From: a virus
Strand: one strand, 5' to 3'
Virus record (IMG/VR): IMGVR_UViG_3300022225_000007
Coordinates: 1 to 23,649 of that record
Length of the DNA stretch: 23,649 nt
This document shows positions 2 to 23,649 of this stretch, piece after piece; position 1 is the stretch's first letter, and each line of letters opens with the position of its first letter. Below the pieces are notes generated by a model. It worked only from the letters and a program-made list of their open reading frames with translations. It had not been told where the DNA came from and made no database searches. The position numbers were made by a program, and so were the translations under genes.

Positions 2-607
2 GTCGGGAGTAAGGTAGCCATAGAGTTGGCTTGTCTTGGTGTGGAGCACGTAACTGTATACGATATGGATTTCATTGAGCCACACAATCTCTCGAATCAG
101 GCTTATCATGAACTCCAAGTTGGTATGAGGAAGTCGTCTGCTCTCGAAGAACTCATTGGTCACAAAGTTGGGCATGAACAATGGCTGAAATGGCAGTTCA
201 AGTCCCAAGAATTCACGAAAATGATTCCGCACTCACATAAAGTGCTTATCTCGGCATTGGATACGAGGAGCGGGAGACAGGAAGTGATGTGGAGTGGCAT
301 GACCAACAGTTCTACTCTTGTGATGGACTGTCGCATGGACGCGATGCAGGGCGCAGTTCACATGTACAATCCCGGAGACCCGAAAGAGCGAAAGGTCTAC
401 ACAGAAAACCTACCTTCCGAAGATTACGAGGGGGAGAAAACTGCCTGTGGATTGCCAATCAACTGTGGCACAACGTCTGGATTTGTAGCGAGCACGGCAG
501 TAGCGATGCTCATAAATTGGTGGAGCTTTGGTATTCGGGAGAACATCCACTTTAACTTACGAGCCATGGAAACGTGGCGAACCCCTGTGATGGAGGGAAC
601 AACATGA
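2..607 (+). CDS. ThiF/E1-like adenylyltransferase (5' end cut by window)
   Basis: This is a ubiquitin-activating-like (ThiF/MoeB/E1 superfamily) adenylation domain. The frame is open from base 2, so the start lies upstream. Visible residues begin VGSKVAIELACLGV, the end of the Rossmann glycine-rich ATP loop, followed by VYDMDFIEPHNLSNQ (about residues 19-33), which matches the family DxDxVExxNLxRQ motif. ALDTRSGRQ (Asp about 87) matches the conserved metal-binding Asp segment. Cys149 and Cys155 lie in a loop before a hydrophobic helix, where thioester cysteines often sit. The usual Arg of NLxRQ is Asn here. Known members adenylate the C-terminus of a ubiquitin-like protein; no such protein is visible in the window. 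The TGA overlaps the ATG of the JAB gene, so the two are probably translated together. The family call is firm; substrate and pathway are unknown. Confidence 0.88.
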   Translation, partial: VGSKVAIELACLGVEHVTVYDMDFIEPHNLSNQAYHELQVGMRKSSALEELIGHKVGHEQWLKWQFKSQEFTKMIPHSHKVLISALDTRSGRQEVMWSGMTNSSTLVMDCRMDAMQGAVHMYNPGDPKERKVYTENLPSEDYEGEKTACGLPINCGTTSGFVASTAVAMLINWWSFGIRENIHFNLRAMETWRTPVMEGTT

Positions 608-1323
608 GACAGATAGACTCAACGGAACCTATGGTCACGATTGACGCTGAAACGTGGGGGCAGATTATGTTCGCCACTCAGGCTGTCGATACGGAGATCA
701 CGGGATGGCTTAATGTGAAACGTGATGAAGATTGTTTTCATATACATGGCGATCTCGTAATTCCCAAGCAAGAAGTAGGCTCAGCCAGTATTGATGTGGG
801 TGCGCCAGAAATGGCATTGATGTTAGATCAGCACGACAACGTGCGTTGTTGGTGGCATAGTCATGTAGACATGGCTACGAACCCATCCTCGACAGACGTT
901 ACGCAAATGGATGGGTATGCAGAAAATCTACCCTTCTACCTAATGCTAATCACGAATAAGAGTGGTAACTATGGTCTCGAAGTTTGGGATATGGAAAGCA
1001 ATCTGATTTGGGAAGGCATCGAGTTAAGCTCTGTTCCGACTCGTGATGTAGAGAAATTGGCAGACATCATTAAGGATAACGTGAAGGAGAAAACCTTTTC
1101 GGTACACCATTGGGGGGAAAAGAATGGTATTTACCATCCGGGGAGTACGTCAATTTATGAGAATGGCAACGGAAGGGGGAACACGTACCCGTATGATCTC
1201 GATGGGGTAAGTGCTGTGCATGGTTGGTGTGATCCTACGCAAATGGAAGTCGAACGCCTGATGTTGAAGGAAGGTATAGACGAGGACGAAGCCTTAGAAT
1301 GGTTTGAGAAAGGATTAGCATAA
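604..1323 (+). CDS. JAMM/JAB (MPN) metallopeptidase
   Basis: A 239-residue protein of the JAB1/MPN/Mov34 family, zinc isopeptidases that remove ubiquitin-like modifiers. The complete JAMM motif is visible: Glu31 (EITGWL), His85 and His87, seven residues, then Ser95 and Asp98 (HSHVDMATNPSSTD). All metal ligands and the catalytic Glu are therefore present. After the peptidase domain (about 1-140) comes a linker rich in Gly, Asn and Tyr, then a charged helical tail (about 208-239). I chose ATG 604 because GGAGGG precedes it and it overlaps the E1-like stop as ATGA; an upstream GTG at 574 is less likely. Pairing with an E1-like enzyme recalls CBASS Cap2/Cap3, Bil and phage ubiquitin-like cassettes. 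It could process a modifier precursor, remove a host-made conjugate, or cut a virion protein. No signal peptide, so it should act in the cytoplasm. Confidence 0.93.
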   Translation: MRQIDSTEPMVTIDAETWGQIMFATQAVDTEITGWLNVKRDEDCFHIHGDLVIPKQEVGSASIDVGAPEMALMLDQHDNVRCWWHSHVDMATNPSSTDVTQMDGYAENLPFYLMLITNKSGNYGLEVWDMESNLIWEGIELSSVPTRDVEKLADIIKDNVKEKTFSVHHWGEKNGIYHPGSTSIYENGNGRGNTYPYDLDGVSAVHGWCDPTQMEVERLMLKEGIDEDEALEWFEKGLA

Positions 1324-1355
1324 ATTGTCAACACGTTTTGAAAAGGAGAATTGAA

Positions 1356-1622
1356 ATGACAGCTTCTAGTAGACATCCCAACAAGCTCACCAACAAGGAA
1401 GAAGTGAGACTAACCGAGAGACTTAGGAAGATCGAAAGCGAACAGGCAATTGCTTGGGGATTACACCGATTAAGCGGTGGATTTGTGAAGGCTGAATATG
1501 ATGAGTGCGATGAAGATAGAATATATATCACCCTCACTGACGGCATACAAAGCGACTGTTATATACAAAAAAATATCAGCCATCTCTCTCTCTGGAGAAA
1601 TACTCTGGAATGGACAGATTAA
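1356..1622 (+). CDS. Small hypothetical protein (88 aa)
   Basis: An 88-residue acidic/basic mixed protein that I do not recognise. The N-terminal half (about 12-40) looks helical, with alternating Lys/Glu/Arg; the second half has strand-like stretches (RIYITLTDG). There are no cysteine pairs, signal peptide or membrane segment. ATG 1356 is preferred over an upstream TTG at 1338 because AAAAGGAG lies at the right distance before it. It sits 32 bases after the JAB gene, in the same direction and probably in the same transcript, and could be an accessory partner of the E1-JAB pair, but nothing in the sequence shows this. It does not end in a Gly-Gly, so it is not an obvious ubiquitin-like modifier. 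Confidence 0.72.
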   Translation: MTASSRHPNKLTNKEEVRLTERLRKIESEQAIAWGLHRLSGGFVKAEYDECDEDRIYITLTDGIQSDCYIQKNISHLSLWRNTLEWTD

Positions 1623-1649
1623 ACTCACCCCTATTGAAAGGAGTAGAAA

Positions 1650-1859
1650 ATGAAACCAAAACGTATTCGATTCACGCCGGAAAATCCCAAACAAATAGTT
1701 GAACACGCCCAACTGGAATATATTCATCATGTGTTACAAGAATGTGGTAATGGGAACGTAGACAACTCAATGGTTGACCAAGCACTAGAATATGTTGAAG
1801 ATATTAGAGAACAATTTGGATGGAAGGGTTGTTCGTATGGAGATTTTTGGGATGATTGA
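1650..1859 (+). CDS. Small hypothetical protein (69 aa)
   Basis: A 69-residue protein, probably mostly helical (about residues 15-55), with an aromatic acidic end (SYGDFWDD). It has two isolated cysteines and no recognisable motif. AAAGGAG six bases before ATG 1650 is a strong ribosome binding site, which makes this a convincing gene despite its size. It lies 27 bases after the previous small gene and runs in the same direction. Function unknown. Confidence 0.72.
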   Translation: MKPKRIRFTPENPKQIVEHAQLEYIHHVLQECGNGNVDNSMVDQALEYVEDIREQFGWKGCSYGDFWDD

Positions 1860-1865
1860 TATAAA

Positions 1866-2153
1866 ATGCCTTTATCGATTTGTCAGGTTCGCAGGGAAAC
1901 GCCTTTTGGTAATGACAACGCAAAGTGCAACGCCATGAGCATTTCTTACATTCATACCACGACTAATCGCGCCTGTCCTCGTTGTGGGTCTGTCAATATC
2001 GTGATTGATGTCACCTGTGTTTGGGACGTAGAAAGCCAACAGTGGGAGATGGACGGAGATCCAGACGAGCATGGCGGGAGCATGACTTGCGCTGACTGTT
2101 CGAGTGACCACTGGTTCTTGGATCATCCCAAAATCATAAAATGGGAGACCTAA
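1866..2153 (+). CDS. Small zinc-ribbon protein
   Basis: Up to 95 residues, with a zinc-ribbon pattern: CPRCGS at about 35-40 and CADCSS at about 76-81, separated by strand-like sequence. This fold usually binds nucleic acid or another protein. The start is uncertain. ATG 1866 follows closely on the previous gene but has only a weak GGATG before it; ATG 1935 (MSISYIHTTTNRACPRCGS) would give a tighter 72-residue zinc-ribbon protein. The first 23 residues of the longer form look unlike a folded domain, which favours the shorter one. It is the last gene before the long hairpin at 2170-2217. Function unknown. Confidence 0.62.
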   Translation: MPLSICQVRRETPFGNDNAKCNAMSISYIHTTTNRACPRCGSVNIVIDVTCVWDVESQQWEMDGDPDEHGGSMTCADCSSDHWFLDHPKIIKWET

Positions 2154-2169
2154 TCACGAGTAGCAAACT

Positions 2170-2217
2170 TTGGTTGTTACGCCCTAACTACTTTAGTAGT
2201 TAGGGTGTAACAACCAA
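2170..2217. repeat. Long perfect-stem hairpin (22-bp arms, UUUA loop)
   Basis: Arms 2170-2191 and 2196-2217 pair over 22 base pairs with a single G-T(U) wobble and a four-base TTTA loop. It lies between the first gene block and the MoxR promoter. A run of eight T begins only 26 bases later (2243-2250), after two direct copies of GGTCGGCT (2224-2231 and 2236-2243), so it is not a textbook intrinsic terminator. It could end or attenuate the upstream transcript, be an RNase III-type processing site, or be a protein-binding site in DNA. Confidence 0.85.
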
Positions 2218-2262
2218 GTAGGTGGTCGGCTAGTTGGTCGGCTTTTTTTTGGCTTTTAACGA

Positions 2263-2299
2263 GTGTCAATTTGACACCAAATGGAGTATGCTATATGAT
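2263..2299 (+). promoter_or_regulatory. Sigma70-type promoter with palindromic operator over the -35 box
   Basis: TTGACA at 2271-2276, a 17-base spacer and TATGAT at 2294-2299 form a near-consensus promoter for the MoxR-VWA pair. The -35 box is the right half of the palindrome GTGTCAA-T-TTGACAC (2263-2277, perfect 7-bp arms), placed where a bound repressor would block RNA polymerase. The 5' leader is short, about 20 bases to the ATG at 2327. Confidence 0.78.
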
Positions 2300-2326
2300 A
2301 CACACAGTCAACACAGGGGAGTGTCT

Positions 2327-4465
2327 ATGACCAAGAAGATAGTTTGTGAGCAGATGTTGTTGGAGATTCAGAAGGCTATCCTTCTGTCAACACAGACAAA
2401 ACGTCGGGGCGCTATGCGTGCGGTATTGGGTCGAATTGCCGATTCATCAGAGTGTGCCGGACTCACACGCCATACATTAATCGAGATCATTGCAGATAGT
2501 CCAATGGTCGGGAGTAAGGACAAGCAAATCAAGATTCGCCCCGCCTTTTCAGCACTTCGTGATTGCCTGAGTTACGCCACCGTTATGGCTATGCTCTACG
2601 AAACCTTTAAGTCCTACCACCCCCCTTCCATTCCGAAAGGGACGGTGACCTTCGATCTTAAAGAGGCTTGGGCGGTTGCCATGGGTGATTTCTCACAAGC
2701 GGTGATTCGCCCAAGTGCGTGCGGTGTCGTGAGTCCGAGGGGTAAAACGGGTTTCGTGATTGGGTACAACAAGCGTTGGTTGATGCCCAAGAAAGGCACG
2801 TCCATGAAGCCATCGTATGATATGGCATCGTTACTGAGGTATAGAGCAGAGAAACAGCGTCAATGGTTTCTTGCACAGACCATTCCTTGTGGTTTTTTGG
2901 AAGGTGGTTTGCTTGATGTCAAGGAGGATGGTGATGAGGCGTTGGTTGCCGTTCCGCTTTCCACGGGGTTGGATATCGTTACCGGGTATCTCGCGACTAA
3001 ATGGGCAGATGATGGCACGATTTTCAGTGAAGTCCGTTCCCATGATGATGGCGGGGCGATGGAAGTCTGGAAATCCGCTGTCTCACACTGTGGGATTGTT
3101 GAGAATTGGGATGACACAACCATAAGTGCTGTGATGACGGCGATTTTCGCGAGAGAAAAAGCCAAGCCAACCGTGATGTCCGAAGTGCCGTTGTCCACAG
3201 AGGCGGATGTGAAGAGTGCATTGGCACGTATTCACGGTGATGCAGGAACTCTCGAAGATGCTGAAGCCAAAGCGGGAGCGCCTAAGTTCAACATCGAAGG
3301 GCCATTGAAGTCATCGCTTGAGGGATTGCTTGACGCGGCAACAGGCGGGACGCTGAAGGATATGGCATCGTTGCAGAAGATGCTTAACGAAGGCGTCGAA
3401 GCCAAAGACAAAGCCAAGAAGTTAGAAGAGCAGGTCGCGAGGGCTGTGCGCCCTGCATCCACGAGGGTTGTGGCTAAGCCGGGTGAGGAACTGCCTGACG
3501 GTGATGTGAAGTACGACAAGGCTTACAACGTCCTTGGTATGCGTAAGCGTGGCTCGATGGACTTTGATGTGCCTGTGTTCGAGTGGAAGACTCCGCATCC
3601 GATGGTTCCTGAGATCGATCCTGATTACATCTTCCGACCGGAACCCACACTAAAGGCGTTGATTGGTCTTGTGAAAGGCATTAACACCTACGCTGTGGGC
3701 CACACCGGAACAGGCAAGACAACCCTATTCTTGCAGTTAGCGTCACGTATGAACTGGCCCGTGATACGGATTAACTTTGATTCGGAGATCACGAGGTTGG
3801 ATTTGATTGGTCGTGACATACTCAAGGCTGATAGCGCAACAGGCGTTACGGTTAGTGAGTTTGTTGAAGGTGTGTTGCCGACTGCCATAGCAGGGCCATT
3901 CATTCTGCTGTGTGATGAGGTGGATCGTGTCAGACCAGAGGTGAGTTACGTGTTCCAGAGGGTGCTTGAGGATCAAGGCATCATGCTCAACGAGGATGGT
4001 GGCCGTCTCGTGAGTCCACATGATTGGCATCGGGTTGTGGCTACAGCCAACACGGTGGGGCAGGGTGATGAGTTTGGCTTGTACCAAGGCGCGAGACACC
4101 AGAGTCAGGCGTTTCTCGATAGGTTCACAAACTGGATCGAGATTGGATATCTCGGTAAGAAGGACGAGACGAAGTTGCTGAAGTCTAAAGCACCGGGTAT
4201 TGATGATAGTGGGACAGAAGCCATTATGAATTACGTGGCTGAGCATCGTTCGGCGTTCGTTAATGCGGAGATCCTGCAACCCATTAGTGCGAGGGCGATT
4301 GAGCAGTTGGGTATGCAGTATGTATCGTACAGGTCGTTGCTTCCCGATTCAGCCAAGGCGTTGAAGATGGCTTTCGATAGCGTGGTGTTGGTGCGTGGCA
4401 GTGCGACTGATCGTGCAGTGATGACGGGGTTGCTTGACCGAGTGACAAAGGGAGAGAGCGAATGA
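2327..4465 (+). CDS. MoxR/CobS-type AAA+ ATPase with long N-terminal extension
   Basis: A 712-residue AAA+ ATPase of the MoxR/CobS/midasin-like group. Walker A is GHTGTGKT (458-465), Walker B FILLCDE (525-531), sensor 1 ATAN follows, and LDRF supplies the likely arginine finger. Proteins of this group form rings that use ATP to remodel partners, normally with a VWA protein, which is the next gene here. About 400 residues precede the ATPase domain. They are not recognisable to me and include an Ala/Lys/Glu-rich, probably coiled region (about 290-375); most MoxR proteins are only about 300-350 residues long in total. ATG 2327 is chosen because GGGGAG precedes it and the promoter lies just upstream; the open frame extends to 2234 but would cover the promoter. 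Phage copies are often labelled cobalt chelatase, but no cobalamin genes are present. Confidence 0.9.
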   Translation: MTKKIVCEQMLLEIQKAILLSTQTKRRGAMRAVLGRIADSSECAGLTRHTLIEIIADSPMVGSKDKQIKIRPAFSALRDCLSYATVMAMLYETFKSYHPPSIPKGTVTFDLKEAWAVAMGDFSQAVIRPSACGVVSPRGKTGFVIGYNKRWLMPKKGTSMKPSYDMASLLRYRAEKQRQWFLAQTIPCGFLEGGLLDVKEDGDEALVAVPLSTGLDIVTGYLATKWADDGTIFSEVRSHDDGGAMEVWKSAVSHCGIVENWDDTTISAVMTAIFAREKAKPTVMSEVPLSTEADVKSALARIHGDAGTLEDAEAKAGAPKFNIEGPLKSSLEGLLDAATGGTLKDMASLQKMLNEGVEAKDKAKKLEEQVARAVRPASTRVVAKPGEELPDGDVKYDKAYNVLGMRKRGSMDFDVPVFEWKTPHPMVPEIDPDYIFRPEPTLKALIGLVKGINTYAVGHTGTGKTTLFLQLASRMNWPVIRINFDSEITRLDLIGRDILKADSATGVTVSEFVEGVLPTAIAGPFILLCDEVDRVRPEVSYVFQRVLEDQGIMLNEDGGRLVSPHDWHRVVATANTVGQGDEFGLYQGARHQSQAFLDRFTNWIEIGYLGKKDETKLLKSKAPGIDDSGTEAIMNYVAEHRSAFVNAEILQPISARAIEQLGMQYVSYRSLLPDSAKALKMAFDSVVLVRGSATDRAVMTGLLDRVTKGESE

Positions 4466-6342
4466 GATTTGAAGAGTTCAGAGACGAGGCAGAGGGTACG
4501 AGTAGGACGTTGGGACGGAACTTTGGCACGAGACTGACGTTCGAGGGCGAAGGTGCGTTCACGGATAGGAAGAGAGTGAATCTACCTATGTTGCCCGAAG
4601 GCGCAGAGTTGACCAAGGAACAGGTTCGGATGACACGAGGCTACATAGATCATGAGGCGGGTGGGCATCAGCGTCATACCGATATCGATTCAATGGAGTT
4701 CATCCAAGAGTGGTCACAAACGGAAGGCAAGCCTGCTGTTCCTAAGATTACAAACGCGATGGAAGACATACGCATTGAGCCAAAGGTGATTCGAGAGTAT
4801 CCGGGTGCGAAGAAGAACCTTGAGGCAACGACCGATGCCGTGTGCCGGATGTTCTTGGATGAGTATGTTGCTGAAGGCGGGGAGAACTATGACCCCGAAG
4901 TGCTTAGCGATAGGCAGAAGGTGTTGCCATTGGTGGTGACATGGGTAGGGCGCAAGAAGAAGGGGTATGAGTCTAAAGCACTTGATGAGTGCATTGATCT
5001 CGTTGATGACGAGTTGGTTAAGGAGGCGCAGGTATGGGCAGATGCGGCAATGGCGTGCAAGGATACGTGGAGCGTGTTCGAGTTAGCGAAGAGGATGAAC
5101 TTGGAAGTATACGAAGAAGAGGAAGAGGAAGAACACGAAGGGCCAACGGGAGAAGGGGATGGAGGTTTGCCTGTAGGTGAAAAGTCTGGCGAGAAGGGCG
5201 ACGGCGAGAAGGGGATGGAGGCTAAAGCGCCGGGTGGTGACATACGAGAGAGTTCGGATGACAAGCCAGAACCTATCGAGATCACAATGAAGGAAGCGCT
5301 TGAGAATGCGTTCCGAGAGGCTTCAGATGGTGCGCCTGATAGTGAGTTCAGAAGTTATACATCAGCAACTGATATAGAAGTTACGCGAGATGGGATCACC
5401 TATCTTGATGGGACGCCATGCCGTAAGAGTAAGCATTACATTGAGCGGATCAACAGTAAAAGTGTTGCCGATTACATAAAGCTGACCAAGCAAATGCGGG
5501 GAATCATCAGTACGATGAAACGAAAGTTGGAGCGTGGCTTGGAAGATATGATGAGGCGTGGCAGGGATGATGGCAAGGAGTATGGGTCGCTTGATACGAG
5601 GCGTCTGGTACAGGCGTACAACCGAGCGCCCAATGTATTCTGGATGCCGGATGAAGCGCCTGATATGAACACTGCGGTTGAAGTGTTGATAGATATGAGT
5701 GGGTCGATGAGTGGTCGGAAACTTGGTCTCGCGATGTTGTCGTCCATCTGTTTGGCTGAAGCCATGAACACGATTGGCGTGCCATTTGAGGTGACGGGAT
5801 TCTTTAGTGATGGGACGAATGATGAGATACCGCACGGTTCGGGCAAGATCAGGGGTTACCACAGGTATCAGGGAGAGACCTACTTCATCTTCAAGAGTTT
5901 CAAGGATTCATTACGCGAAGCCAGAGGGAATCTGGCGTCCATCATCAAGTGCTGTGGTTTCGAGAACTGTGATGGTGTGAGTGTGCGTTGGGTAGGTAAG
6001 CGTCTCATGAAGAGGCCAGAGAATAAGAAGGTTCTCATGGTCTTGAGTGACGGGCATCCTGCGTTCTTGATTGGAAGGGGTGCGGACAGGAAAGTGGCTC
6101 ACCAGTATCTTCCCGATGTGATTAAGGGGTTGAGTGATACGGGGATGCACGTAGTTGGTATTGGGATATGCAGTGATGCGGTGAAGAGGTATTACCCGCA
6201 TTGGGTGGTGCTTGATGATATCGAAGGGTTACCGGGAGCGGTGATGTCTCAGGTGGCGAAAATCCTCATGGGTAAGCGCGTTGTCTTGGATAATAGCGAA
6301 CTCATGAAGGCTTCCTCACTTGGTCGTCGTCGTGTGGCGTAA
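4462..6342 (+). CDS. CobT-like VWA (MIDAS) protein
   Basis: A 626-residue partner of the MoxR ATPase, overlapping its stop as ATGA. The C-terminal third is a von Willebrand factor A domain with the metal-binding MIDAS motif DMSGSMSG (Asp411, Ser413, Ser415) and a later LSDGHP segment. The N-terminal region has DHEAGGHQRHTD (His64, Glu65, His69, His72), as in CobT-like proteins, which resembles a metalloprotease HExxH motif but with an extra residue. A highly acidic Glu/Gly/Asp-rich linker lies at about 214-275. In chelatases the AAA+ ring and a VWA subunit act together on a third partner; the partner here is unknown. A chaperone-like role in virion or replication-complex assembly, or action on E1/JAB substrates, is inference only. 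Confidence 0.88.
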   Translation: MRFEEFRDEAEGTSRTLGRNFGTRLTFEGEGAFTDRKRVNLPMLPEGAELTKEQVRMTRGYIDHEAGGHQRHTDIDSMEFIQEWSQTEGKPAVPKITNAMEDIRIEPKVIREYPGAKKNLEATTDAVCRMFLDEYVAEGGENYDPEVLSDRQKVLPLVVTWVGRKKKGYESKALDECIDLVDDELVKEAQVWADAAMACKDTWSVFELAKRMNLEVYEEEEEEEHEGPTGEGDGGLPVGEKSGEKGDGEKGMEAKAPGGDIRESSDDKPEPIEITMKEALENAFREASDGAPDSEFRSYTSATDIEVTRDGITYLDGTPCRKSKHYIERINSKSVADYIKLTKQMRGIISTMKRKLERGLEDMMRRGRDDGKEYGSLDTRRLVQAYNRAPNVFWMPDEAPDMNTAVEVLIDMSGSMSGRKLGLAMLSSICLAEAMNTIGVPFEVTGFFSDGTNDEIPHGSGKIRGYHRYQGETYFIFKSFKDSLREARGNLASIIKCCGFENCDGVSVRWVGKRLMKRPENKKVLMVLSDGHPAFLIGRGADRKVAHQYLPDVIKGLSDTGMHVVGIGICSDAVKRYYPHWVVLDDIEGLPGAVMSQVAKILMGKRVVLDNSELMKASSLGRRRVA

Positions 6343-8978: not shown

Positions 8979-9980
8979 ATGTTAAAGATCACATCCCGTG
9001 GGGGGATTCTATATGTAGTTGGCTCAGTCAATGGCAATCGTGTTCGCCAGAGTACGGGGCTTAGTGTTGGGAATAAGGCGGAGGCTGAACTTGTTAGAGC
9101 CAATATGGAGTTGGCTTTGTTTAGGGGTGATTCTTTGTGCGGTGGCGTGGGCGCTAAGAGTTTCAAGTCGGTATGCGAATCGTATGAGAAGCGGAGAGGT
9201 GGGATTAGTAAGACGCAAAAGGGGAACATCGACAGGCTGTTGCGTTACTGGGGTTCCACCCATGTTGATGACATCAATCAGTTCTTGGTTGATAGGTACG
9301 TTGCTGATGTGCATTGCAATAATAAAGATGGAACTATTCGGCGTGAGTTGAATACGATGAAGGCCATCTTGAACTACGGTGCGGAGCGTGGCTTGTGCAA
9401 GGAAGCCAGATTTGGGTTACCGCCTGATGGGGAAGGGCGCACTCGGTACTTGAGTAGTGACGAGAGGAGCGAGGTTCTGGCGTGCTTGGGTGGTATCGAG
9501 GAACTTAGTGACAAGGTAAGTCCTATAAAGAGGGAGCTTATATTCCTGCTTTACTGTGGCGCACGGCTGTCGGAGATGCGAACCTTGTTATGGGGTGCTG
9601 TGGATGAGGACTCTGTAGTGCTTGTGAGTATTAAGGGGAACAAGCGTAAGAAGAAGACGAGAAGAGTGCCACTGCACCATAGGGTTGTTAATACTTTAGG
9701 CGTGCGTGGTGAGCCAACTGAACTTGTGTTTACCAAGGGGGGCGGGAATATGTGGGATAAGACAGCGTTCTATCACGAGTTTCATAAGGTTATGAGTTGT
9801 GCAGGTATCAGTGACTTTACTCCGCATGATTGCAGGCATACGTTCGCAAGCCATTTGGTGATGGGCGGGGCAGACTTGCGTACTGTCGCTGAGTTGTTGG
9901 GGCATAGCACCATGAGTATGGTGATGCGTTATTCACACTTATCAAGGGGGCATCTTGAAGATGCTATTAAAAAATTATGA
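8979..9980 (+). CDS. int: Tyrosine recombinase / phage integrase
   Basis: A 333-residue tyrosine recombinase that would integrate and, with helpers, excise the phage DNA. The catalytic set is complete: Arg196 (GARLSEMR), a lysine in the KRKKKTRRVPL beta-hairpin, His283 and Arg286 (HDCRHTF), His309 (LLGHS) and nucleophile Tyr318 (MRYSHLS). The N-terminal part contains an arm/core-binding domain (about 55-150) with SKTQKGNIDRLLRYW and TIRRELNTMKAILNYG. Length is normal for a compact phage integrase. GGGGGGG precedes ATG 8979. The stop overlaps the next gene as ATGA. An attachment site is expected nearby, most likely just downstream, but I could not identify a core. Confidence 0.95.
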   Translation: MLKITSRGGILYVVGSVNGNRVRQSTGLSVGNKAEAELVRANMELALFRGDSLCGGVGAKSFKSVCESYEKRRGGISKTQKGNIDRLLRYWGSTHVDDINQFLVDRYVADVHCNNKDGTIRRELNTMKAILNYGAERGLCKEARFGLPPDGEGRTRYLSSDERSEVLACLGGIEELSDKVSPIKRELIFLLYCGARLSEMRTLLWGAVDEDSVVLVSIKGNKRKKKTRRVPLHHRVVNTLGVRGEPTELVFTKGGGNMWDKTAFYHEFHKVMSCAGISDFTPHDCRHTFASHLVMGGADLRTVAELLGHSTMSMVMRYSHLSRGHLEDAIKKL

Positions 9981-18416: not shown

Positions 18417-19216
18417 TTGCCCAAGAAATTCTGAGCGCTCTCGAAGAAGAGGGCGCTCAGATTCGCTACAAGGCACGCTCCTACATAGGGGCGTCAATCA
18501 TTGGTAACGACTGTACTGCGTATCTGAATTATTCGTTACGCGGGTTTCCTGAAAATTCCCCTAGCCCTAAACTCCTGCGTATCTTTAATGTAGGACATGC
18601 TCTTGAGCCGATGGTCGTTGACGACCTAAAGAAGAAGGGCGGGTATGGCGTGAGTGAGGTGGACGAACTCACGGGAGATCAGTACGAGTACACAGCACTA
18701 GGCGATCATGTGGTATGTCATCTGGATGGGATCATCTATGTAGATGAGGAACCATGTGTTTTAGAAATCAAGACGATGAACAAGAGTAAGTTCAACGCCT
18801 TTGAGAAGAAGGGCGTGAAGACCTCACACCCGCAATATTTTGCACAGTGTATGTTGGCTATGCACCTGAGCGGAATGCACAAATCTTTTCTCGTAGCAAT
18901 CTGTAAGGATGACTGTCGATATCACATAGAGGTTATAGAATACGATGAGTTTGAAGCGTCTGCTCTGAAGCAAAAGATATGGACGGCGGTGACGGAACCG
19001 GAACGCATCTCTCCGGTGGAATCAGATTGGCGTTGCCGTGGATGCTTTAAGCGTACATCGTGTTGGCACCCGGAGGAATTGGATGCTCCACCCAAATGCT
19101 CTATGTGTAAGCACGCCAAGCCAGATATATACGCACAAGATAAGCAATGGCATTGCGGTAAACATGACCGTCCTGCGGTCGATCCATGCGAGGATTACGA
19201 AATGCTATTAGCGTGA
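18413..19216 (+). CDS. Cas4/RecB-like PD-(D/E)XK exonuclease
   Basis: A 267-residue nuclease. The core shows His62-x2-Glu65 (GHALEP), Asp105 (CHLDGII), Glu118-x-Lys120 (LEIKT) and Gln145 (QYFAQC), the RecB/Cas4/YqaJ order. Cys34 near the N-terminus and CRGCFKRTSC in the C-terminal part could hold a Cas4-type Fe-S cluster; a further Cys/His set follows (CSMC, WHCGKH, DPC). It probably resects double-stranded ends to give ssDNA for the SSB and Sak4-like ATPase. ATG 18413 is chosen because it overlaps the stop of the membrane peptide; the longer frame from 18347 reads through that peptide in another frame and looks unnatural. Its stop overlaps the giant leftward gene tail to tail by nine bases. 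Confidence 0.85.
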   Translation: MIAQEILSALEEEGAQIRYKARSYIGASIIGNDCTAYLNYSLRGFPENSPSPKLLRIFNVGHALEPMVVDDLKKKGGYGVSEVDELTGDQYEYTALGDHVVCHLDGIIYVDEEPCVLEIKTMNKSKFNAFEKKGVKTSHPQYFAQCMLAMHLSGMHKSFLVAICKDDCRYHIEVIEYDEFEASALKQKIWTAVTEPERISPVESDWRCRGCFKRTSCWHPEELDAPPKCSMCKHAKPDIYAQDKQWHCGKHDRPAVDPCEDYEMLLA

Positions 19217-22200
19217 GTATTTGCGCCTGTAGCGAGTGTTTGATCCCCCACCTGTCTTCTTCTCTCCTGCCCATAAGTCAGTCAACGATTCTTTCGCGGC
19301 TTTAATGCCGCCAACTACTGGGATGCGCTGTATTACTTCACGCGCCGCCTGTCGTGCTTGCCCATTGGGGCCATCGTCTTCGCCGAAAAGTACATTGCCA
19401 AGACCTTGTGCCACGTTCCAAACGCCTACGGTCTCTCCAAACGACGGGCCAAGTATGTTACCCATTGTGCGCGTGTAGCCATAGTATCCGTTATCAGCCT
19501 GTTCGACAGCGTTATGAAGTAGTTCTGCGTACAAGCCAAAGCCACCCAAGTGTAACATGCCCTCGAAATACCACCCGGCAAAATCGTTCGGGTCTGTGCC
19601 GTGTATTTCCGGGTCATAGCCGACTGCTTTAAGCCATTCCCTCATGCTTGTTACGTTACGATCTCGGACAATCCCCTCTTCCTCGCTTCCGCGCATCTGA
19701 ATTATGTCTTTGGCTGTTAAAGCCATTGCGCCACCCGCTGGCCCCATAGCCGCAAGCATTATCATTGGCTTGTAGGAGTGCCAGTTCTTTGGATCTTTCC
19801 AAATCTCCATCATGTTGTCTTTACCCAGCCTTGCCATCATCATGGGAAAGGACTTCAACTGCCACATCATTGCACCCGCTGGTGCCTGCGCCCATAGAGG
19901 TGTGTCGTTAGTGTTAGGCGCGAAAATAGTATCGTTCGCAAATTTAATGAGCGCGTCTCTTAGCTTTTCATTTTCAATGATGAGCCGAGGATCAATAGCT
20001 TCATCATACTCTACCCCAAGATGACGACGACTTTTTATCAAGCCCTCTATGGATGGGCTGTCAGGCCGCGCATAATCGTCGAGACCATACGATTCAAGAA
20101 CACGCTTTGCTCTGCGCCCCGCTCTACTATTAAGGCCGTGACGGGCAATACGTTTCTGTTCAGTCTTAAACCACTCTATTGCTACTATGCCCGCGAGGTC
20201 ACGCATTGAGTCAGTCCAAGGTGTGAGCATGGATGCGTTAAAGAAAGCGGTCGTAAGTTTGGATGCGTCTACACCGTACATACCAACGAGCCGATTGTGT
20301 ACGTAGTTTTCAATCGACAGACCAGCATCTTTAATCATCGCCCTGTAGTCTGGGTCAGAGGCGTACCGTCTTATTCCACGAAGCCATGAACCCATCTCGC
20401 CTGATCGTATAAGGAGGATAAAGGGGTCAGTTAATGACGTAACCGTGGTGAAACTCAGCTTCGTTAGTGCGTTGAAGTTGCGTAGGAATCTGGAGATCTT
20501 CTTTCGCGCTGTATATGCGTACGAATCTGTACCCCACTGCTTCCTTTGCGAAGCCATGAGGAGATGCTCCATTATTTGTATCTCTGCTGGCGGTAGCTCG
20601 CCACGCAAGTTCATCTCCAAGCCAGCCACAATGGCCTCGGCTTGGCGATCCCATTGGAATTTCTTACGTTCGGACAGCGGGAACTTGTGTAATCCTGGGT
20701 TCTTGAGGATGCGTTCAGCTTCTACAACTCCGCCACGAGCAGGATTGTTCAGTACATCCACTAGGTTGGCGACTAATTGCTCTGCGGCAACCCTGTTCTT
20801 TCCAAATGGTGCGGGTATTTCGTCTTTGGTCTGCACCGTTTCTACTTCTCCATCGACTATACCTCTACGGGTTCGCCTGATCTCTCTCGGTCTTGTGAGC
20901 GCATTGATTGCCGCTTCGTTACCCTCTCGGAGGATACGCATGTACATCATTGCGCCGCGGTTACCATGTCCAAATCGTTTAGCGAATTCAATCTTTCTTG
21001 ATGAGCCATCCAGATATTTAGCTAGAATAGAGGAGAGGTCTCCTTCAAGAAACTCTTCCAGTTCTTTCAGGTTCCCTCGGAACTCAGGCTTCTGGAGCAT
21101 TATCATTCTCTGATAATCCACGTTATCAAGACCCGGCTCGTTCTTGGATGCGTATTGCGGTGGAAAGTGAACGCCGTCATCATCCAAGATTTTAGAGATC
21201 ATCCTCTTGGCAATGCCCTGAGCTTTCTCACGAGACAAGACCTCATCTCTTAGTAAGGCTTCCTGTTGAAAGTAGTCGGCAAGTTTCTCTCTAGCCCGTA
21301 CAATATTTCTTGATATACGCGTGGGTGACCATATTTGCGGGACATAGTTCCTAGCGATACCGCCGTGCATGATCCCGTAATGTATAAGTTGTTCTTTTTC
21401 AGACTCAAATGTTTCCCTGATTCGTCTGTAAGCCAAACGCTCTCCATCTGTTTTCAGGAAGGTTTCCTCTCCCGTGCGTAGCGCCCACATTACATTGTAT
21501 TCGGCTTCTGTTGGGCGACTGCGATGTCGCACATCTATTGAGCGCTTAAACCAGCGCTGGAAAGCGTTACTGCTTCCCGGCAGGGCGTTGAGTGCGCGAA
21601 CAATCGGCATAAGTTTGCGGCCAATCTCGCTATCAACTCTTTCAAATATGCCCGTGCCTTTATCTTTCTGGAAGAAGTCAGAAAAGTACCTGTCGCCAAT
21701 CATACGTAAGCGGCTTGATCCTTTGCGTAAGTAGAATGTCGGCCCCTTACGGTGAGCCTCAACAATAGACTCTGGCTTGGGTTTTCCGCGTACGCGTACA
21801 CGTAAATCATCAACAAACCGATCAGTTGGTTCTGACCCACCACGCTCTATTGTGTGGGCAACGCCTACGTTACTTCCATCGCCCCCTTCAATGATGTCTC
21901 GCACAATTGGTGTAACGATGGTTGCGTCTTCAGGCGCTGTGTTGAATGTCAGCACATCGTCTTCATCAAAGCGTGGATCATCCAAGCGACGCACGTTATC
22001 TTTATTGAAAATCACGTATTCAGTGTGCTGATCTTTTGCGCCACCCCTTAGTCGATGAGACCCAGTGAACTTGATGCCGTCATACCCCATGTCTTTGAGT
22101 ATTTCATTAACACGAGCCTTCGCTGACACAACACCGTTTGTGGCCCACTCAGGGATCTTATCGCTCGCCAGCGACCTCCACATTGCGTCGTATAAAGCAC

Positions 22201-23649
22201 GCCCCCTATCTTCAACACCGGGTCTATTTTGAGCGCCCATAATTTTCGCGCTTACCGCTATAGTATCTCCTTCTTCGACAACGCGATTCATAAATTCCCT
22301 AATAAGCCAATCTTGTGATTTGTTATCAGATGCGTGTGATAGGTCTGCATATTTCTTGCTGTTGCTTACCACCGGAGATACTTGGTCGTAATGTCGACCA
22401 GTTACTTTATGCAAATCAGATGCAAGTCCGGCTTCGATTTCGAACAGTTCCGTCATTAAACTATCTAAGTCTGCTTGTCCAACTCGGGCGACCCCATTCA
22501 GATCGTGCCATTCAGCAGTGGCACGAGCGTCTGAAATATCTGAGCGTACATCAGATAGTCTTGTGGCGAGAGAGTCTGCGGTTGCTATCTTTTCTGCCGG
22601 AGCCTCTACCTCGTTGAGATGTTCAGCAACAATTTCATTTAGTGATTTTGCGTATGGCTTGGATCTTGTAGAGGCGTACACGCCGGGGCCAAAGTCTCCA
22701 TCTACTGGGAGGACGGCGGCTGTGTCTCCATTGGATCTAACGAAGTAAGGGATAACACCGTTAGCGGTTCTTGCTATACCAGTGCCAATGAACGCATGAA
22801 GGTTACGTTTCGTACGTACAGGCATAGCGTCAATGACATCCTTGGCGTACGGGCCAGCCATGTCTTGAGATACGGATTTCTTACCCCTCAAGCGTCTAGC
22901 AAAGTCTCGACTCTGTTTGGGCTTGTGTGCGAATAGTGGGTCTGCGAATTCAGCAAGGCGTGGGTGGGTGACATACCAATTATCAAAGGCATCTATCCCA
23001 TCCATGATATAAGCCACGCTTGATGTGATGTTATCCATAGCGGAATCAACATCCGGCAGAACTTCATCTCTTACACCACGTAATGGAGCGCGTCCTTCTT
23101 TTGCGTGAGCAACCCAGCGATCTAGGAACTGGCCTTCATCTTTGAAGGATAGTTTTACAGCCGCTAGTTCTTCAGCGTTTAAGACCCCAGCACGAATGGC
23201 AAACTGAGCCATCTTAACTACATCATTATTCTTTACTGCACTGCGAACTTGTGAGCGAAATGACTTGAACCCCTCGTCAGAAAAATCATTCAATGGTTTA
23301 TCTGGCGTGGATTCAACTGCTCGACCAGCCAGTGTGGCTATATGGTTGTTCGTTATCGGCTGTCTTGGGTCACTCAAGCCCGTCAAATTCATAATCCTGT
23401 AAGCCACAGTGCGAGTAGCAATCTGCTTTTCAGGAGTTCTTTCTGTAATTCTGAAAAGTATTTCCCTCAGATGCGAGCGAGTGTTGTGCGGAATGCCGTC
23501 TACGACAGGGCGATTTCCAATATCTCGCACTTCGCCGTGTACAGATTTGTCTGTTCGGGGTGGAGGAGGTTTATTGAGCTTGTTCCGCTTATTATTTGCA
23601 CGCCGTATGAGTTCAGACTTAATCTGCCGAACCTCATCACGTTCAGCGG
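19208..23649 (-). CDS. Giant polyvalent-type phage protein with ADP-ribosyltransferase-like domain (5' end cut)
   Basis: A very large protein; the frame is open to the right edge, so the real start is outside the window. At least 1480 residues are visible, 39 of them before a GTG at 23530 (numbering from that GTG). An ADP-ribosyltransferase-like region spans about 245-515: LHAFIGTG, then FGPGVYASTRSKPYAKS (about 275-291), and YDGIKF with TEYVIFNKDNVRRL (about 500), as in ART domains of polyvalent phage proteins; a helical insertion separates them. The middle (about 560-1000) is highly charged and helical. The C-terminal part contains LTKLSFTTVTSLTDPFILL, QLKSFPMMMARLG (about 1225) and a hydrophobic stretch AAMGPAGGAMALTA that may enter membranes. 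Such proteins are packed in virions and injected to modify the host. The ART label is moderate; the large virion-type label is fairly safe. Confidence 0.72.
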   Translation of the reverse strand, partial: AERDEVRQIKSELIRRANNKRNKLNKPPPPRTDKSVHGEVRDIGNRPVVDGIPHNTRSHLREILFRITERTPEKQIATRTVAYRIMNLTGLSDPRQPITNNHIATLAGRAVESTPDKPLNDFSDEGFKSFRSQVRSAVKNNDVVKMAQFAIRAGVLNAEELAAVKLSFKDEGQFLDRWVAHAKEGRAPLRGVRDEVLPDVDSAMDNITSSVAYIMDGIDAFDNWYVTHPRLAEFADPLFAHKPKQSRDFARRLRGKKSVSQDMAGPYAKDVIDAMPVRTKRNLHAFIGTGIARTANGVIPYFVRSNGDTAAVLPVDGDFGPGVYASTRSKPYAKSLNEIVAEHLNEVEAPAEKIATADSLATRLSDVRSDISDARATAEWHDLNGVARVGQADLDSLMTELFEIEAGLASDLHKVTGRHYDQVSPVVSNSKKYADLSHASDNKSQDWLIREFMNRVVEEGDTIAVSAKIMGAQNRPGVEDRGRALYDAMWRSLASDKIPEWATNGVVSAKARVNEILKDMGYDGIKFTGSHRLRGGAKDQHTEYVIFNKDNVRRLDDPRFDEDDVLTFNTAPEDATIVTPIVRDIIEGGDGSNVGVAHTIERGGSEPTDRFVDDLRVRVRGKPKPESIVEAHRKGPTFYLRKGSSRLRMIGDRYFSDFFQKDKGTGIFERVDSEIGRKLMPIVRALNALPGSSNAFQRWFKRSIDVRHRSRPTEAEYNVMWALRTGEETFLKTDGERLAYRRIRETFESEKEQLIHYGIMHGGIARNYVPQIWSPTRISRNIVRAREKLADYFQQEALLRDEVLSREKAQGIAKRMISKILDDDGVHFPPQYASKNEPGLDNVDYQRMIMLQKPEFRGNLKELEEFLEGDLSSILAKYLDGSSRKIEFAKRFGHGNRGAMMYMRILREGNEAAINALTRPREIRRTRRGIVDGEVETVQTKDEIPAPFGKNRVAAEQLVANLVDVLNNPARGGVVEAERILKNPGLHKFPLSERKKFQWDRQAEAIVAGLEMNLRGELPPAEIQIMEHLLMASQRKQWGTDSYAYTARKKISRFLRNFNALTKLSFTTVTSLTDPFILLIRSGEMGSWLRGIRRYASDPDYRAMIKDAGLSIENYVHNRLVGMYGVDASKLTTAFFNASMLTPWTDSMRDLAGIVAIEWFKTEQKRIARHGLNSRAGRRAKRVLESYGLDDYARPDSPSIEGLIKSRRHLGVEYDEAIDPRLIIENEKLRDALIKFANDTIFAPNTNDTPLWAQAPAGAMMWQLKSFPMMMARLGKDNMMEIWKDPKNWHSYKPMIMLAAMGPAGGAMALTAKDIIQMRGSEEEGIVRDRNVTSMREWLKAVGYDPEIHGTDPNDFAGWYFEGMLHLGGFGLYAELLHNAVEQADNGYYGYTRTMGNILGPSFGETVGVWNVAQGLGNVLFGEDDGPNGQARQAAREVIQRIPVVGGIKAAKESLTDLWAGEKKTGGGSNTRYRRKYSR

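Follow-up and report, generated by a model that had tools for sequence, protein, structure and literature searches.

An E1-JAB gene pair, probably of a phage-borne ubiquitin-like cassette, adjoining a probably unrelated CobS-CobT module in a CRP-810-type phage contig

The known ubiquitin-like pathways of prokaryotes are mostly host defences against phages or plasmid cassettes of uncertain role. The bacterial anti-phage system Bil (BilABCD) is composed of a ubiquitin-like protein (Ubl), an E2, a JAB protease and an E1; in particular, BilD, the E1, contains two adenylation domains (one inactive and one active) plus a Cys domain, and BilB, the E2, is characterized by a CEHH motif (PMC11354881). 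In type II CBASS, E1 and JAB chemistry is operated by Cap2 and Cap3, with Cap2 being an E2-E1 fusion accompanied by a CD-NTase. On plasmids, the PRTRC (ParB-related, ThiF-related) cassette encodes a Ubl (C), an E2 (B), a JAB (A) and ThiF, together with ParB/E/F partners, and appears to correspond to operon type 6d of Iyer et al. 2006. In that survey, operons of these types were described from bacteria, the phage examples being confined to Ubl-JAB genes of tail assembly (PMC1779556). The stretch of DNA analysed here (the window) is the entire IMG/VR virus record IMGVR_UViG_3300022225_000007, 23,649 bases without end repeats, which starts inside a gene and has no leftward extension. At its left end it carries an E1-like gene and a JAB gene, followed at a short distance by a CobS-CobT pair. 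We consider it probable that these are two unrelated adjoining modules: the E1-JAB pair would belong to a phage-borne Ubl cassette, inserted in a variable stretch of small genes left of CobS, and CobS-CobT would be a separately transcribed AAA+/VWA protein-remodelling pair, core to the CRP-810-type phages.

The two genes of the left end are as follows.

2-607, plus strand: adenylating enzyme of the E1 type, truncated on its 5' side where the contig begins (PF00899, E = 2.2e-12)
604-1323, plus strand: JAMM/JAB metalloprotease (Prok-JAB, 25.6 bits for a cut-off of 25)

Both genes, like the AAA+ and VWA genes and the promoter block presented below, are real, well beyond chance. An earlier note, made from the letters of the window, had described an E1-type domain overlapping by four bases a JAB gene with an intact JAMM motif. 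Both observations hold, as the stop of the E1 gene and the start of the JAB gene share ATGA at 604-607, and the protease contains the full JAMM set (E31, H85-S-H87, S95 and D98). Among 110 relatives, the two histidines, the serine and the aspartate are conserved in 100% and the glutamate in 96%. The JAB family profile matches Rpn11-type deubiquitinases (6fju, 2.6e-8), and also RPN11, BRCC36 and CSN5; judged by these matches, the family is Rpn11/BRCC36-like. Because of the truncation, the glycines that open the nucleotide-binding loop are missing from the E1 fragment of the window. Its C149 (fragment numbering) corresponds to a cysteine invariant in 105/105 aligned E1s, and the equally invariant D, N, Q, K, D, R and R are retained. 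The profile of this E1 family matches UBA5 (5e-19) and UBA1 (4e-15).

Searching viral contigs directly for close relatives of the E1 gave none, and relatives were reached via the JAB profile, with 179 of them in viral contigs (of which 80 were retained) and 30 in contigs of cellular genomes. In total, 120 loci with a JAB relative were compared (numbered with L below), and the family, which we define in this analysis as the phage Ubl-E2-JAB-E1 cassette, is widespread and mostly phage-borne, occurring together with its Ubl and E2 in about a hundred other contigs. An E1 is present in 117 of the 120 loci, a beta-grasp Ubl in 105 and an E2-like protein in 99. Since E1 and JAB adjoin in 117/120 loci, mostly accompanied by an E2-like protein and a Ubl, they are members of a phage-carried conjugation and deconjugation cassette. 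In the window, too, an E1 gene with the invariant cysteine adjoins a JAB gene with the JAMM residues, which places the pair in the family; in this respect, the proposal of a phage conjugation and release system put forward in the earlier note is supported. The cassette genes are arranged in several orders, the commonest being Ubl-E2-JAB-E1 (53 loci), followed by Ubl-E1-JAB-E2 (17, plus 2 with two Ubls), JAB-E1-Ubl (14), E2-JAB-E1-Ubl (11) and others. The order of the window, E1 and then JAB, is also found in 17-20 loci, many of them with the identical 4-base overlap, and the closest matches of the window E1, L019 (4e-24) and L055 (4e-22), are both E1-JAB cassette loci of the Ubl-E1-JAB-E2 group. 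Cassette E1s contain one ThiF domain and measure about 200-280 amino acids.

The family reaches the crAss-like Steigviridae, where JAB and E1 (L008, L009, L011 and L012) are annotated as 'metalloprotease' and 'thiamine biosynthesis'. Here an E2-like protein (HSH...CxGxGPI) and a weak Ubl match precede JAB and E1, and on this gene content the Steigviridae probably carry the whole cassette. A Ubl-E2-JAB-E1 cassette is also found in a contig binned as Lokiarchaeota (L113), which groups with a phage contig (L005) and may be an archaeal virus or a binning error.

Pfam does not recognise the E2-like protein of the cassette. Its motif is HPHxxxxxxxxCLG, resembling the HPN...CL motif that ubiquitin E2s carry; in the alignment, C and G are invariant, P, H and D are nearly so, and no histidine is conserved after the cysteine. 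Modelled at full length (pLDDT 93), the protein shows an extended helical hairpin and a core; the core was also modelled alone because the coiled coil swamped the fold searches with the full length. Of the 50 matches listed for the core model (pLDDT 90), nearly all are domain-wide alignments with ubiquitin-conjugating (UBC) enzymes, the best among them being Ubc13 (Z 6.4, 121 residues, 4.0 A). Because motif, domain-wide alignment and gene context are taken together, the core is predicted to adopt the UBC fold. Some gut contigs with the JAB-E1-Ubl order (L027, L042 and similar) have before JAB a gene of about 435 amino acids, recognised by no model, which may code for a divergent E2.

The Ubls of the cassette are beta-grasp proteins of about 70 amino acids, of which that of L002 matches ThiS at 9e-8, with weaker matches to other beta-grasp families. 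Across the Ubl genes of loci L015-L124 (for example L055 8718-8930 and L095 6697-6927), ...KGN is a common ending, ...KADNA is another, and few have Gly-Gly. The likeness of some Ubls to ThiS brings in a second reading, namely a ThiF-ThiS-JAB-like set for sulfur-carrier chemistry, whose product would be a thiocarboxylate used for a cofactor or a modified base, and not a protein conjugate. JAB proteins accompanying sulfur carriers are known (Iyer 2006, PMC1779556), and ThiF and MoeB give the best NCBIfam scores for the window E1. These scores are, however, far below the equivalog cut-offs (47/159, 39/152, 31/275 and 26/266 bits), and E2 and JAB are the regular companions of these E1s. The grouping with thiamine or molybdopterin synthesis that would have spoken against the proposal of the earlier note is not observed. 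Moreover, an E2-like protein with an invariant cysteine and a predicted UBC fold is present in 99/120 cassettes, the JAB is nearest to Rpn11-type deubiquitinases, the Ubl tails are mostly not Gly-Gly, and, in the neighbourhoods read, neither a sulfurtransferase nor a rhodanese was noticed as a partner. Taken together, these features make sulfur-carrier chemistry quite unlikely.

How the phage cassette compares with the described systems can be seen part by part. The gene order of PRTRC is that of the commonest phage cassette, its Ubl ends in ...GAKG as in many phage Ubls, and its E2 has a short G-x-x-C-x-G motif reminiscent of the phage E2. On the other hand, the PRTRC E2 has FNxW where the phage E2 has HPH, its JAB carries an N-terminal DUF2016 whereas the window JAB consists of Prok-JAB only, and the ParB/E/F partners are a further difference from the phage cassette. 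The window E1 is below the cut-off of the PRTRC ThiF equivalog TIGR03736 (34.3 vs 144.75 bits), and profile comparisons of the phage proteins with their PRTRC counterparts (E2 with B, JAB with A, Ubl with C), made on small alignments, gave weak results. As a separate observation, on a Sulfuricystis plasmid (L125, 1022-7811) the PRTRC genes are preceded by dnaN, which codes for the beta clamp of DNA polymerase, a hint of a link with replication.

Bil shares the same four parts with the phage cassette. The phage E1, with its single ThiF domain, differs from the BilD architecture, and the E2 of the relatives has HPH before the cysteine and no CEHH. In other words, as far as gene and motif comparison goes, the phage cassette resembles PRTRC and Bil but fails the defining features of both. 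In the case of CBASS, the Cap2 E2 domain is among the structural matches of the phage E2 core (7tqd, Z 5.0); in contrast to the Cap2 fusion, E1 and E2 of the relatives are separate open reading frames, accompanied by a Ubl gene. PADLOC matches to the window E1 reach at most 30.6 bits and concern the adenylation domain only. With respect to the eukaryotic and archaeal systems, the nearest profiles are Rpn11-like (6fju) for JAB and UBA5 for E1, with the UBC fold for E2; the phage proteins differ in being small and single-domain, with a Ubl tail K-G-N, not Gly-Gly. A search of the open-access literature found no paper on a phage Ubl-E2-JAB-E1 cassette, a coverage that is incomplete and leaves room for an earlier description.

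From this comparison we infer a reading of the family that we hold to be about as probable as its opposite: phages of the Steigviridae and of many unrelated lineages may carry a complete Ubl pathway, distinct from PRTRC, Bil and CBASS, made of a Ubl ending in Lys-Gly-Asn or Lys-Ala-x-Asn, a single-domain UBA5-like E1, a coiled-coil HPH...CLG E2 and an Rpn11-like JAB, and modifying host or virion proteins. As for the proposed working of the cassette, JAB would trim the residues after the terminal Lys-Gly (or equivalent) of the Ubl, exposing the reactive end; E1 would then adenylate the Ubl and take it onto its invariant cysteine, and the E2 would transfer it onto target proteins, at their amino groups, in the course of infection, with JAB also able to reverse the link between Ubl and target. 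The enzymes, their catalytic residues, their co-occurrence and the E2 fold prediction come from sequences and models; the order of these steps, the covalent conjugation and the nature of the targets are proposed by homology. The cassette would most likely serve to modify proteins of the host or of the virion while infection proceeds. In the phage of the window, the part missing at the 5' side would hold, in analogy with the relatives, a Ubl of about 70 amino acids and a coiled-coil E2, both probably located beyond the left end of the contig. If phages do carry a complete pathway, bacterial viruses of many lineages, including crAss-like gut phages, would use protein tagging themselves, perhaps for cell takeover or for excluding rivals. 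The cassette also offers biochemistry an E1, an E2 and a JAB in small, single-domain form.

Several observations weigh against assigning the window pair to a working cassette of this kind. The Ubl and E2 profiles have no match in the window (matches within about 4.5 kb were considered), whose upstream side lies beyond the contig start, and E2 follows JAB in the relatives with the same order but not in the window. In the phylogeny, the window E1 and JAB are placed inside the family on long branches and with no firm position; they may therefore have diverged in function. As regards the family, the UBC match of the E2 core is moderate, with Z under 8. Plain Foldseek of the core against the PDB gave no significant match, the UBC enzymes being listed by the VIA second look, and the classical Gly-Gly end is missing from many of the Ubls.

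It is on the window pair that an orphan counter-defence has to be considered. According to this explanation, only E1 and JAB would have been kept, with JAB stripping off Ubl tags attached by Bil- or CBASS-type systems of the host and E1 serving as a decoy or competitor. The intact JAMM motif and the lack of E2 and Ubl matches within 23.6 kb would fit, and CBASS and Bil JABs are generally known to reverse conjugation (PMC11354881). However, JAB is accompanied by E1, E2 and Ubl in nearly all relatives, a pure deconjugase would hardly need to keep an E1 whose catalytic residues are all intact, and the contig starts inside the E1 gene, so that a loss of E2 and Ubl cannot be read from the window. 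Counter-defence by an orphan pair is, in our view, unlikely, and membership in a larger phage-borne Ubl cassette continues to be preferred for E1 and JAB.

The region between JAB and the end of CobT contains the following features.

1356-1622, plus strand: small open reading frame s1, 88 amino acids, no relatives found, E2 and Ubl profiles negative
1650-1859, plus strand: small open reading frame s2, 69 amino acids, no convincing relatives
1926-2153, plus strand: small open reading frame s3, 75 amino acids, weak zinc-ribbon-like match
2173-2250, plus strand: transcription terminator after the E1-JAB-s1-s2-s3 run (long hairpin, second hairpin, T-tract)
2263-2277, plus strand: palindrome GTGTCAA-T-TTGACAC (7-1-7, perfect), candidate operator overlapping the -35 box
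2271-2299, plus strand: sigma-70-like promoter TTGACA-17-TATGAT of the CobS-CobT unit (11/12 match)
2327-4465, plus strand: CobS-like MoxR-class AAA+ ATPase (phrog_249, 5e-53; TIGR01650, 5e-50, under the curated cut-off)
4462-6342, plus strand: CobT-like VWA protein with the MIDAS motif DMSGS (PF11775, 3e-33)

The three small genes and the chelatase-like pair are arranged as the earlier note had described them, and the promoter that it had placed at 2271, able to express the second half separately, is supported by its context: a terminator hairpin precedes it, and the block is conserved in two relatives. These are the nearest relatives of the window, L128 (CobT 60% identical) and L007 (CobS 58% identical), in which terminator, palindrome and promoter sit at the equivalent place. 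The terminator hairpin folds with -47 kcal/mol (z -7.5), and its place and structure are kept in both. The palindrome is perfect in L128 (4469-4483) and one base off in L007 (about 9908-9922); in the form GTGTCAA-N-TTGACAC it has a single copy in both the window and L128, and represents a candidate operator of this phage lineage. Left of CobS, L128 and L007 have different small genes and no E1-JAB. The slot left of the block is, from this comparison, an exchangeable and variable stretch of small genes. As for s1-s3, considered as candidates for the missing Ubl or E2, this candidacy was rejected, because neither profile matches any open reading frame of the window and a search for relatives gave none that convince.

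MoxR-VWA pairs remodel protein complexes, and the earlier note had gone as far as supposing that this AAA+/VWA machine acts on the same targets as E1 and JAB. In such a joint machine, the former pair would tag and untag proteins that CobS-CobT unfolds or remodels; the adjacency of the two pairs on one strand and the general activity of MoxR-VWA proteins speak in its favour. The neighbourhoods do not. CobT is present in 1/120 JAB loci, and JAB/E1 in 1/62 CobT loci (58 loci came from the CobT profile search), the window being the single case both times; 43 of the 61 other CobT loci have more than 3 kb of sequence upstream of CobS. In whole records the figures are 0/20 for CobT_C in those with E1-JAB and 0/25 for ThiF above cut-off in those with CobT. 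These counts are to be read knowing that most records are fragments and that the scans reach only relatives with shared conserved peptides. The repeated co-occurrence that the earlier note had named as support was not found, and the two pairs occur mostly apart. Taken together with the conserved terminator, operator and promoter that divide the halves, the counts lead to the conclusion that E1-JAB and CobS-CobT are separate units; the joint machine is very improbable and for the most part refuted. As a caution, adjacency on a fragment should not be read as one pathway, the ATPase/VWA pair being a separate module. Neither protein reaches the equivalog cut-offs of the aerobic cobaltochelatase CobST (170.6/558.55 bits for CobS and 108.3/759.05 bits for CobT).

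The contig is, by conserved gene order, a member of the CRP-810-type phages. Eleven genes of the Roseobacter phage CRP-810 are matched in the window with order and strand conserved, in the sequence CobS, CobT, integrase, Holliday junction resolvase, small helix-turn-helix gene, primase-polymerase, small gene, AAA ATPase, DUF669/ssDNA-binding protein, nuclease and large virion-region gene. CRP-810 has the same CobS-CobT pair, followed by the same order from the integrase to the nuclease; unlike the window, it has no ThiF above cut-off, and other small genes fill its left slot. Among 251 CRP-810-related genomes, cobS and cobT are found in almost all and an integrase in 217 (PMC11288001), which makes the pair one of the core modules of the family.

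The position of E1-JAB at the contig edge and its absence from all other CobS-CobT phages compared raise the question of an assembly chimera, in which the left 2 kb would be foreign to the phage of the window. Strand, skew and general G+C range agree along the contig, though, and the terminator/promoter block at the junction is that of the lineage itself, with the slot left of it varying in relatives as well. A chimera is on these grounds very improbable, and an E1-JAB pair belonging to a Ubl cassette, inserted beside an independent CobS-CobT unit, is the reading retained. At the opposite end of the window, on the minus strand (19208-23647), lies a gene of 1,479 amino acids with no Pfam match and 35% identity to a virion-region gene of CRP-810.

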